From assembly GCA_910575505.1 (NCBI GenBank), contig CAJTFK010000004.1:124001-188000 (forward strand): DNA of 64,000 bases. The letters run 5' to 3'. This DNA comes from Oscillospiraceae bacterium (lineage in GTDB: Bacteria; Bacillota; Clostridia; Oscillospirales; Oscillospiraceae). The position numbers and the translations under genes were made by a program. Numbering within the stretch: the first letter of the stretch is position 1; each line of letters starts with the position of its first letter. This document shows positions 35,747-41,568 of this stretch, in pieces. Below the pieces are notes generated by a model. The model ran no database searches. It was not told the DNA's origin and was given only the letters and a program-made list of their open reading frames with translations.

Positions 35747-38635
35747 TTAGCCCAGCAGCTGGAGGACGCCCTGAGGCACCGCGTTGGCCTGGGCCAGCAT
35801 CGCCTGAGCGGACTGGACCAGAATGTTGTTCTTGGTGTAGGACATCATTTCCTCAGCGATGTCGGTGTCGCGGATGGTGGACTCAGCATCCTGGATGTTC
35901 TCCGCCATGACGCTCAGGTTGTTGGCGGTGTGCTCCAGACGGTTCTGATAAGCGCCCAGGTCGCCGCGGACGCCGGAAACGTAGTTAATGGCGTTCTTGA
36001 TGACGTCCACAGCCTTCTGTGCATTATCGGAGGTCAGGATGTCGATATCCTCAATGCTGGTGGACTCGCCGGTTTCCTCGTCGGTCAGCTTCATGGCGGA
36101 CACGTGCATGTCGCCGATGGAGACCTTCATCTGGTTGAAGGCATCGGAGGTGTCGCCAATCTGGAGGTTCAGAGCCTTGCCGCCCTCGGTGGCCTCGGAA
36201 ATCACGTTCTCCTTCTCATAGGAGCCGGCGCCGATGAAGCTCAGGGACTGCTCAATGCCTTCCTTGGTGCTCAGGTCGAACTTGGTGTTGGCATTGTTCC
36301 GGTAGTCCTCCAGTGTCTGGTTGGTGTCCAGATCGCCGTGGGTCTTGGTCTCGGTGAGGGTGATGCGGTTGCCGTCGTGGCCCACGGTCCAGACCGCGTT
36401 GCCCTTGGCGGCCTCGGTCAGGTTCTTGGCGATGGCGGCCAGGTCGCCGGAAGAAGCGTCCACGAAGGTGACGTTGCCGGCGGTTCCAATCTTCTTGGGA
36501 TCGGTGGTGAAGGTGAATTCATCCTCGCCAATCTTGATGGTCGCGCCGTCCTTCACCATGTCCTCGGTCAGGTCGAAGTAGGTGCTGGCCAGACGGTCCG
36601 CGCCGCCGGCGGTGACGTTCTTGATGGCGGTGGTGGACACGTTGAAGTCGCCGTGAGCGCCCTCGGTGATGCCCTCCATCTTGCCGCCCTCAGCGCCTTC
36701 CTCCACAACGTCAATCTGGGCCTCAGTGAGCTTGACGGGAGCCTTATAGGTGTTGTAGCTAATAGCATTGGTAAGAGTGCCGTTGGCAGTGGGGCCCTGT
36801 CCGCCAGAAAGGCCAGCCTTCTGAGCAGTCAGAGTCAGGGTGTTGCCGTCCAGGGTGGCGATATATTCGCCCACCTTGAGGCCCCGCTCACCGGCAGCGT
36901 TCAGCTTATCAAAATCAATCTCATATTCAGTGCCGTTAGCATCCTCAAGGGTCACAGGACCCAGGGCGCTGTCGTTCCAGCCGGTGACGTCATAGGTCCA
37001 GGTATCCTTTACGGCATCCACAGCGTTGACCGCCGTACCTGTTCCCAAGGCCAGTTTGGTGGTACCCGTAGCAGCATCTCCGCCGAGGGTAATGCCAGTA
37101 ACGGCGCCCTTGCCGGTGCCCATCTCCTTGGCTTCCAGAATAATTCCGGTATCACTACCGGAAATATCAAAGAGGTTGCTCAAATCCTTGTCGGCTTTGA
37201 GCGCGTCAATCAACTTTCCGGCGGCAGTAGTTACGGTATCTGTACCAGTCAGCGTATAACTGACATTTTTAGTCTGAGCCTTACCAGCAGCATCCGTATA
37301 GTTAACAGTCAGCGTCGCCACTTCACCAGCAGTGACAGCACCACCAGCAGTCAGCGTACCAGTGGTATACTTGCTCTTCACGCCGTCCACGCCTGCGACC
37401 TGGTTACCAGTGATACCAGTAGCGGCCTGGGTCTCCTTATAGGAGACGGTGGGGGTGTTCATCTTGCCGGCCTCTTTGGCAGTCAGAGTGACCTTGCCGC
37501 CGTCCTCGGTGACTTTATAGTCGCTAAGGATGCCCTGCTTTTCCATGTCGGCAAACACCTCAGACCACGTCTGAGCAGTGGGAGCAGCACCGGTCGTATC
37601 CTTATCCTTGATAGTATAGCTCTGGCCGTTGATGGTCACAACGCCGCCGATGGTGGTATTACCCAGGTCAGCGGCATTGAAGGTGAATTCAGCCTTCTTG
37701 GGCTCCACCTTGCCGCTGATGGTGACCTGCATAGAGCCGTTGATCTCGTCGGCCTTGGAGGCGGGCGCTTCCTTCTGAGTGAAGGTCAGACGGGAGGTAT
37801 TCTCAGCGCCGGCCTTGACCTCCATGGTCTGGCCGTTGATCTGCATGCCGTCCAGGGTGTCGACCTTCTTGCCGTCCACGGTAATCTCATAGCCGTTGGC
37901 GCCCAGGAACGCGTTGACCAGATCAGCGCCCTCCACCTGACCGTGGTCCTCGGTGGCCTTCAGGGTGATCTCGGTGTCGCCCATCTTCATGGTCAGGGTG
38001 TTGCCCTTGCCGCCCTGGAACTTGAAGTTGTGCAGGTCCACGCTGAACTGGGTTCCCGTGGAGCCGTTGGCCTCGTTGTGGAGGACGGTGTTGGTGCCCA
38101 GCACCTGGCCCACCTCGGCCAGCTTGCCGTTCTCAAAGGTCAGGGCCTCGCTCTTGGTGGGGTCAATAGTGACGGTCTCGGTCACGGCGTCCTGAGCCAG
38201 CTTGGCGGTGTCCAGAGAGCCGTCCAGCAGCTTGATGCCGTTGAAGTTGGCAGAGTCGGCGATGCGGTTGATTTCGGTCTTGAGGGCGCTCATTTCCTTG
38301 TTCAGGTTCTCGCGGTCCACCTCGTCCTGATAGGTGCCGTTGGCAGACTGGGTAGCCAGATAGTCCATGCGGTTGAGCATGTCCTGAATTTCCTGCATGG
38401 CGCCCTCGGCGGTCTTCACCAGAGAGATGCCGTCCTTGACGTTCTTGCTGGCGGCATTCAGGCCGGTGATCTGAGCCCGCATCTTCTCGGAAATAGCCAG
38501 ACCGGCGGCGTCGTCACCGGCGCGGTTGATCTTGTATCCGGAGGACAGCTTTTCCAGGTTCTTGGACAGGGCGCTGGTGTTGGTGTTGTAGTTGCGGTAG
38601 GCGTTCATCGCCAGAATATTGTGCTGAATACGCAT
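35747..38635 (-). CDS. Very large flagellin
   Basis: The 962-residue protein has flagellin ends: N-terminal D0/D1 (MRIQHNILAMNAYRN, then KLSSGYKINRAGDDAAGLAI) and a C-terminal helix (IRDTDIAEEMMSY, NILVQSAQAMLAQAN). Typical flagellins are 270-500 residues; here some 700 residues of beta-rich, Thr/Gly-rich D2/D3-like modules are inserted. Recurrent segments such as VTLTAKEAGK and LTLTAQKAGL lie near 382 and 605. It is exported by the flagellar system. csrA lies just upstream, with the TnpB-like gene before it. Confidence 0.95.
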   Translation of the reverse strand: MRIQHNILAMNAYRNYNTNTSALSKNLEKLSSGYKINRAGDDAAGLAISEKMRAQITGLNAASKNVKDGISLVKTAEGAMQEIQDMLNRMDYLATQSANGTYQDEVDRENLNKEMSALKTEINRIADSANFNGIKLLDGSLDTAKLAQDAVTETVTIDPTKSEALTFENGKLAEVGQVLGTNTVLHNEANGSTGTQFSVDLHNFKFQGGKGNTLTMKMGDTEITLKATEDHGQVEGADLVNAFLGANGYEITVDGKKVDTLDGMQINGQTMEVKAGAENTSRLTFTQKEAPASKADEINGSMQVTISGKVEPKKAEFTFNAADLGNTTIGGVVTINGQSYTIKDKDTTGAAPTAQTWSEVFADMEKQGILSDYKVTEDGGKVTLTAKEAGKMNTPTVSYKETQAATGITGNQVAGVDGVKSKYTTGTLTAGGAVTAGEVATLTVNYTDAAGKAQTKNVSYTLTGTDTVTTAAGKLIDALKADKDLSNLFDISGSDTGIILEAKEMGTGKGAVTGITLGGDAATGTTKLALGTGTAVNAVDAVKDTWTYDVTGWNDSALGPVTLEDANGTEYEIDFDKLNAAGERGLKVGEYIATLDGNTLTLTAQKAGLSGGQGPTANGTLTNAISYNTYKAPVKLTEAQIDVVEEGAEGGKMEGITEGAHGDFNVSTTAIKNVTAGGADRLASTYFDLTEDMVKDGATIKIGEDEFTFTTDPKKIGTAGNVTFVDASSGDLAAIAKNLTEAAKGNAVWTVGHDGNRITLTETKTHGDLDTNQTLEDYRNNANTKFDLSTKEGIEQSLSFIGAGSYEKENVISEATEGGKALNLQIGDTSDAFNQMKVSIGDMHVSAMKLTDEETGESTSIEDIDILTSDNAQKAVDVIKNAINYVSGVRGDLGAYQNRLEHTANNLSVMAENIQDAESTIRDTDIAEEMMSYTKNNILVQSAQAMLAQANAVPQGVLQLLG

Positions 38636-38811
38636 TGTTTTTGCCTCCTTAGCAAAATTTAATGTGTTTGAACAATCCTTCGTTCGCCCACAAATGAAAG
38701 GTGGTGCGCCGCCCCCCGGTATCCGGAGTGCCGGAAGACAGACGCAGGACTGGGAACCCGCCCACCGTCAGGCGGTGAGGCTCCATATATTTCAACCAGC
38801 TCGTCAGCCGT

Positions 38812-38914
38812 TTGAAACCTTTTTGGTTTCCGCCGCGCTCTGCGCGGCGGCTCCCTCCTACAGGGAGTTTTTTTGTTTCCGCCGCACTCTGTGCGGCGGC
38901 TCCCCCGGGCCTGG
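38812..38914 (-). promoter_or_regulatory. Flagellin leader hairpins
   Basis: Two near-identical modules, GCCGCCGC-(A/G)CAGAG-(T/C)GCGGCGG, separated by CTCCCT-GTA-GGAGGGAG, lie between csrA and the flagellin start. The middle hairpin exposes AGGA, and the flagellin ribosome-binding site is AAGGAGG; both resemble CsrA targets. Confidence 0.5.
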
Positions 38915-40860: not shown

Positions 40861-40908
40861 AGAAGCCGTCAGTTTGAAAACGCACACATTTTCAAACTGA
40901 CGGCTTCT
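40861..40908. other. Perfect 20-bp stem hairpin
   Basis: AGAAGCCGTCAGTTTGAAAA (40861-40880) and its exact complement (40889-40908) are separated by the loop CGCACACA. The plus-strand side is followed by several TTTTC runs. It lies between the recombinase and TnpB-like genes. It could be a terminator or a recombinase or mobile-element site. Confidence 0.6.
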
Positions 40909-40953
40909 CCGTTTTCTGTTTTCTGTTTTCAGCCCCAGCCGGCGGGGGCAGGA

Positions 40954-41568
40954 CTAGGTACTGTTTTCAAGCCGGACGGCCTTGGCGTAAAAGGTTCCCA
41001 CCGGCATGGCGCATGCGTCCGCCGCCTCTCTCAGGGTCAGCTTCTTGTTCCGCCAGTCCCGGTGCACCTTGCTGAAGTTGTCCGGCAGAGGAAGAGGCGG
41101 CCTGCCGAACCTCACGCCCTTGGCCTTCGCGGCGGCGATGCCCTCCGCCTGCCGCTGGCGGATGTTGCTCCGCTCGTTTTCCGCCGCGAAGGACAGAACC
41201 TGGAGCACAATGTCGCTGAGAAAGGTGCCCATCAGGTCCTTCCCCCGGCGGGTGTCCAGCAGGGGCATGTCCAGCACCACGATGTCAACCCCCCTTTCCT
41301 TGGTCAGGGCCCGCCACTGCTCCAGAATCTCCTCGTAATTGCGCCCCAGCCGGTCTATGCTTTTGACATACAGCAGGTCGCCCGGCCTCAGTTTTTTCAC
41401 CATCCGCTGATACTGGGGCCGCAGAAAATCCTTTCCGGACTGCTTGTCCATGAAAATGTGCTTCTCCGGAATGGCCAGGCCCTGCATGGCAACCATCTGG
41501 CGGTCCTCATTCTGGTCCCTGGAGCTGACGCGGATGTATCCGTACACCTCGTTCGCGATGGGTTCCAC
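40954..41568 (-). CDS. Serine recombinase (resolvase/invertase type)
   Basis: The 204-residue protein has the catalytic domain first ([16 protein letters not shown] with the active Ser; [13 protein letters not shown] with catalytic Arg; the [11 protein letters not shown] helix) and a C-terminal HTH ([20 protein letters not shown]). This order fits Hin/Tn3 resolvases, not IS607 TnpA, whose HTH is N-terminal. All catalytic residues appear present. The GTG start (41568) overlaps AGGAGG, so a slightly downstream start is possible. A family A repeat sits 16 nt upstream. Confidence 0.88.

Follow-up and report, generated by a model that had tools for sequence, protein, structure and literature searches.

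A probable flagellin phase switch with an RNA-guided repressor in an Oscillospiraceae bacterium

In the genome of an Oscillospiraceae bacterium (GCA_910575505.1; 4.26 Mb in 115 contigs, 94.9% complete), a serine recombinase, a relative of TnpB, a csrA gene and a flagellin gene follow one another on the minus strand within a stretch of 64,000 nucleotides (positions 124,001 to 188,000 of contig CAJTFK010000004.1), referred to below as the window, which raises the question of whether these neighbors form one regulatory unit and what such a unit would control. The locus is considered here, with a probability of about 85%, to be a flagellin phase-variation operon with an RNA-guided repressor, similar in layout to hin-fljBA of Salmonella. 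An earlier note on this DNA had proposed a two-layer RNA-based control of flagellin with the recombinase as a third layer, a view that is supported by the sequence and by published work on the same group of loci (PMC13418256).

We infer a switch of the following kind. The recombinase would flip a 121-bp segment bearing a sigma28-like promoter, and in the ON state a single transcript would span tldR (the gene of the nuclease-dead TnpB relative, TldR), a guide RNA at its 3' end, csrA and the adjoining flagellin gene, termed the resident flagellin. TldR and its guide would then bind the start of a second flagellin gene, fliC2 on contig C3, without cutting it, CsrA would use GGA hairpins in the leader to block translation, and the resident flagellin, itself spared, would take over from fliC2. 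In the OFF state, the one found in this assembly, the promoter points at the recombinase gene (hin), and a sigma28-like promoter of its own would drive fliC2. What can be read directly in the DNA comprises the genes, the loss of RuvC residues, the two orientations of the inverton, the conserved guide-RNA structure, the match of the guide to fliC2 and the hairpins. In window coordinates, the parts of the locus are arranged as follows.

40954–41568, minus strand: hin-like serine recombinase, start codon uncertain (Resolvase, 106 bits; PDB match Sin / Tn552 bin3)
40767–40887, no strand: invertible segment with repeats at 40764–40784 and 40870–40890 (121 bp reversed in the near-twin locus L009 at 100% identity)
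40816–40846, plus strand: sigma28-like promoter within the inverton, pointing at hin, OFF for tldR (promoter pattern)
39513–40793, minus strand: tldR, encoding a nuclease-dead TnpB relative, with its true start probably near 40712 (Pfam/NCBIfam, motif alignment, solved-TnpB alignment)
39330–39535, minus strand: guide-RNA scaffold overlapping the 3' end of tldR, with long stem arms at 39426–39450 and 39472–39496 (covariation, fold z −6.0, inverted repeat)
39311–39329, minus strand: putative guide, its start placed at AATATT (scaffold alignment and genome-wide target search)
38915–39250, minus strand: divergent csrA paralogue, 111 amino acids (Pfam CsrA 56.1 bits, cut-off 27; NCBIfam csrA 32 bits, under the cut-off of 70.1)
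38671–38684, minus strand: upstream GGA hairpin, candidate CsrA site (leader hairpin scan)
38639–38657, minus strand: hairpin whose loop holds the GGA of the Shine-Dalgarno sequence, candidate CsrA site (leader hairpin scan)
35747–38635, minus strand: resident, tldR-linked flagellin, 962 amino acids, variable center (Pfam Flagellin_N and Flagellin_C; comparison with L009)

A sign of a switch is found between hin and tldR, where the 121 bp of the window are 100% identical to those of L009 yet reversed, within flanks that are about 98% identical and equally oriented; the TldR proteins of the two loci are 97% identical. The sigma28-like promoter is accordingly directed toward hin in the window and toward tldR in L009, so that both states of the switch are visible in two near-identical genomes. 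Among 21 loci surveyed by eye, one of which (L046) was cut off and some of which gave weak promoter matches, the promoter points toward tldR in 7 (L009, L014, L016, L017, L028, L029 and L047) and toward hin in 13. Inversions of about 120 bp carrying a FliA-dependent promoter have been reported at the same place in Flavonifractor plautii (PMC13418256). The recombinase, whose best sequence match in the PDB is Sin / Tn552 bin3 (E 2.4e-30), would be the enzyme that flips the segment, as its adjacency suggests. A further inverted repeat at 41585–41746 was considered as a second inverton and rejected, as it is present in at least 40 copies in the genome and missing at the corresponding site of L009. 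It belongs to an element of about 160 bp just upstream of hin (41583–41748), with AGAACCTGTATTCA ends and the appearance of a miniature inverted-repeat transposable element, for which at least 40 genomic copies were counted (40 scored of 122 candidates).

The descent of TldR from TnpB is clear from its NCBIfam guided_TnpB score of 222.8 bits (cut-off 100), from the Pfam domains OrfB_IS605, HTH_OrfB_IS605 and Cas12f1-like_TNB, all above their cut-offs, and from its similarity to the solved TnpB 8h1j (E 1e-36). When aligned to 14 intact TnpB comparators, the three RuvC motifs GLD, IE and DRD are found to read GLQ, MR and RRE in TldR, with the residue changes D to Q, E to R and D to E; alignments to solved TnpB confirm the loss in motifs 1 and 3, and the better-scoring of them also confirms that in motif 2. 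Judged by these residues, TldR is dead as a nuclease, and the earlier description of a nuclease-dead TnpB is borne out. With L017 and L045 counted as one locus, the first two RuvC residues are missing in all 23 rows of the clade in which three motifs can be read, and the third is retained in three of them (L026, L029 and L047); the remaining aligned rows comprise 14 intact proteins, the altered L043 and the partial L019, L020 and L031. The TnpB of L043, with motifs GIR, IR and DRA and with no csrA, flagellin or hin found in its stretch, is possibly a separate dead TnpB. Judged by eye, the start of tldR is probably the ATG near 40712 (about 399 amino acids) rather than the listed ATG at 40793, because most homologues align only from residue 20–40; the listed ATG adjoins the invertible repeat.

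A protein of such ancestry beside a serine recombinase might simply be what is left of a decaying transposon, IS200/IS605-like or, given the arrangement of the two genes, IS607-like, that came to lie next to csrA and flagellin by chance, and a truncated tldR in L019, with no csrA, flagellin or hin over 4.4 kb downstream, speaks for this. The explanation is highly improbable, since the recombinase scores 22.9 bits against the IS607 transposase cut-off of 110, by which an IS607 element was ruled out, and since the gene order recurs, the scaffold covaries and the guides point at flagellin. Across 24 distinct loci of the tldR clade, csrA was found in 19, a flagellin start in 21 and a hin homologue in 15 (on the opposite strand in L018), a count made in fetched stretches, some of which stop at contig edges, with the duplicates L001, L005, L022 and L045 dropped and the truncated L031, which has all three neighbors, left out. 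None of the three was found around any of the 14 intact TnpB comparators, in stretches reaching no more than about 1.5 kb to either side. The gene order thus recurs across homologous loci, which are mostly not scattered without csrA or flagellin, L019 being an exception; such scatter was what the earlier note had named as a refutation. Matches at E 1e-30 or better occur in 24 of 300 genomes sampled from the family, the source genome and intact TnpBs included; the comparison of loci draws on fetched matches, which are a part of the matches in this sample.

Downstream of tldR, a guide-RNA scaffold could be aligned in 21 of the 24 loci tried (L020, L047 and L031 were not extracted), ending in each case directly before a guide of the AATATT or AACATT type. 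Its consensus has 44 pairs, 28 of which show two-sided change, and the scaffold of the window folds with a z of −6.0, a value equaled by none of 200 shuffles. The long stem at 39426–39496 resembles the stem that RNase III cuts in the csrA-associated TldR loci, where the guide RNA is split by this enzyme (PMC13418256). The guide itself would begin at AATATT, since variation is seen in the letters before it and the intact relatives L030 and L032, by eye, end their scaffold in TCAC. A guide RNA had been expected at 39.43–39.56 kb, where the scaffold was indeed found, but the predicted guide lies outside that interval, at 39311–39329.

The whole genome was searched with the 18-letter guide at up to 3 mismatches. 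The best match other than the guide itself covers codons 5–10 of fliC2, with 1 mismatch in 18, and the second, with 2 mismatches, lies on the other strand in that gene's sigma28-like promoter; 3 mismatches were found at four places, the resident flagellin among them. Under a uniform model, chance would give about 0.18 matches with 2 or fewer mismatches in the whole genome and 3e-5 in a stretch of 700 bp, and the reversed guide gave no match anywhere in the genome at up to 3 mismatches. The promoter match (L006, 10194–10211, plus strand) spans the promoter spacer and follows CAC, and the first 10 letters of the guide all match. Apart from this species it occurs in the near twin only, and is therefore not independently conserved. 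Promoter targeting as a general rule was rejected, as the match is present in 2 of 17 flagellins and a third match (L050) proved by eye to be the guide of another locus. A search with exact words of at least 11 letters, comparing the 3' region of tldR with fetched genome stretches, was also set aside, as most of its matches were chance-like; the start and promoter of fliC2 were among them.

How the resident flagellin might escape a guide directed at its rival is suggested by codon usage. The peptide HNI[ML]AM is common to most of the flagellins compared, with differing codons. After hand correction, in which the guides of L015 and L050 were added and L011/L098 were treated as one locus, 2 of 26 linked flagellins match the 9-nucleotide core of their own guide and 9 of 12 unlinked ones match a guide of their own genome (by pattern before correction, 1/25 and 8/11), a difference with a Fisher p of 6e-5 that overstates independence, the loci being related. 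Only 1 of 21 linked flagellins matches the guide of another locus, and a perfect unlinked core match was found in 9 of the 14 genomes that have a guide and another flagellin start. These comparisons lead to the inference that synonymous differences from the guide would be the main means by which the resident gene is spared. The fuller proposal, in which self and non-self would be written in synonymous codons (the resident recoding the seed while keeping HNIxAM, the rival keeping the codons) and the rival would in this species offer two targets, one in its start region and the other in the sigma28-like promoter, is evenly balanced between likely and unlikely. If it is true, codon changes alone could exempt a flagellin from RNA-guided silencing or subject it to such silencing.

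The promoters and leaders of the flagellins are consistent with the same division. After relabeling and counting by hand, 11 of 13 unlinked flagellins were found to have a sigma28-like site upstream, against 0 of 26 linked ones, as would be expected if the latter are read from the inverton. The scan covered 375–700 bp upstream per gene, excluding the linked flagellins L065, L081, L087, L091 and L098. Under the initial labels, whose "standalone" class still contained the linked flagellins L050, L095, L064, L069 and L071, sites were seen in 11 of 18 genes of that class and in 0 of 21 "resident" genes (shuffle means 1.55 and 1.2), and hairpins of at least five pairs with GGA in the loop occurred in 16/18 and 16/21 leaders (shuffle means 5.9 and 5.5). 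The leader of fliC2 contains two such hairpins, one covering the Shine-Dalgarno sequence, and two are likewise present at the resident gene. The (I/V)xRG motif of CsrA keeps its arginine, which we take to be the RNA-binding Arg44, in every aligned row, as judged by eye. In the gap between csrA and the resident flagellin (38820–38904), two 36-nucleotide hairpin units that are 92% alike were observed, and similar units are located upstream of fliC2 in L097.

Several observations weigh against the proposed switch, and two of the alternatives build on them. The resident flagellin of the window differs from the guide core at only one position, a U-G wobble at position 7 (positions 10 and 12 are mismatched as well), which may leave its sparing incomplete; in L016, whose flank is changed, and in L050, the resident shows no difference from its own guide core. 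TldR and its guide might thus act in feedback on the resident gene too, with no choice between two flagellins, an explanation that is improbable given that mismatches to their own guide core occur in 24 of 26 linked flagellins, while 9 of 12 unlinked ones match. No perfect unlinked core match was found in 5 of the 14 genomes (G302, G284, G086, G212 and G122); most guides differ from the G of the flagellin at position 10, and fliC2 is therefore not a perfect target either; hin was not seen in 9 of the 24 clade loci, some of them at contig ends. Finally, since GGA hairpins are found in both leaders, CsrA alone would not distinguish the two flagellins, and the genome has a second csrA and FliW. 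The CsrA part could accordingly be ordinary CsrA-FliW-flagellin homeostasis, in which the csrA of the locus adds dosage and contributes nothing to the choice of flagellin. This is somewhat unlikely, as a csrA paralogue accompanies tldR in 19 of 24 loci and the CsrA of such loci has been found on the leader of the targeted fliC (PMC13418256).

The order of recombinase, TnpB-like gene, csrA and flagellin on the minus strand, as first described, is confirmed by coordinates and by Pfam matches above their cut-offs. The source genome contains one tldR match, two strong Flagellin_N matches (the resident locus and fliC2 on C3) besides two weak ones (C7 and C10), and two csrA genes, with a single FliW adjoining the one outside the locus. 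The flagellin, once called giant, is large at 962 amino acids, but so are its relatives of 838 and 926; its ends are identical to those in L009 and its center (36600–37900) has strongly diverged, which suggests fast surface variation. The host, taken for a Clostridium, belongs to the class Clostridia but not to that genus, and the near twin L009 comes from an uncultured Oscillibacter sp. Elsewhere in the window, Rfam matches mark an M-box riboswitch (30853–31012, plus strand) and a T-box leader (57481–57725, minus strand).

Two well-known systems provide the closest regulatory parallels. In Salmonella hin-fljBA, an invertase turns an invertible promoter that drives one flagellin together with a repressor of its counterpart. 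The present locus shares the invertase, the invertible promoter and the pairing of a flagellin with a repressor, but in place of FljA it would use a CsrA paralogue and a TnpB relative guided by RNA. In the CsrA-FliW-Hag homeostasis of Bacillus, CsrA-type hairpins lie over the Shine-Dalgarno sequence of flagellin; such hairpins and FliW are shared here, and the difference is an extra, divergent CsrA tied to tldR.

Whether a csrA-linked clostridial group had already been described, a question left by the earlier note, is answered by a 2026 publication, the only one on this group that literature searches turned up, on csrA-associated TldRs with hin, a promoter inverton of about 120 bp and guides into fliC open reading frames, in which the parallel with Hin is also drawn (PMC13418256). 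That paper reports, from RIP-seq and ChIP-seq (sequencing after RNA or chromatin immunoprecipitation) in related systems, binding of the guides and of fliC open reading frames, and of CsrA on the fliC leader. The enterobacterial prophage parallel drawn earlier fails, as the TldRs of this group are described as chromosomal (PMC13418256), and a prophage origin was rejected after a scan of viral contigs for close relatives, whose four pattern-matching stretches included no relative. The fliCP-TldR of Enterobacter phage, as described in the same paper, shares the dead TnpB, a guide against host flagellin and an adjoining flagellin of its own, and differs from the window locus, which is chromosomal, carries csrA and hin, and has a guide matching the start of an open reading frame plus a promoter. 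In the main text of PMC13418256, Extended Data and tables lying outside it, a word search gave no occurrence of synonymous, recod, self-target, escape, operon or FljA, and it likewise did not bring up the synonymous difference of the resident, the absent own promoter or the second guide match in the target promoter. Sparing at the codon level, the logic of the operon and the additional target would be modest, testable additions to the published kind. The locus is a genuine, well-preserved example of that kind, sharing with the loci of the published hosts, Oscillibacter and Flavonifractor, the hin gene, the inverton of about 120 bp with its FliA-dependent promoter, tldR with a stem-loop guide RNA, csrA, fliC and guides into fliC open reading frames, and differing in that it comes from another genome. 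It offers a full, legible example of an uncultured gut bacterium whose flagellar phase switch would include an RNA-guided repressor, together with testable rules, codon-level sparing and one operon read from an inverton, for how an exapted TnpB could choose between nearly identical genes.

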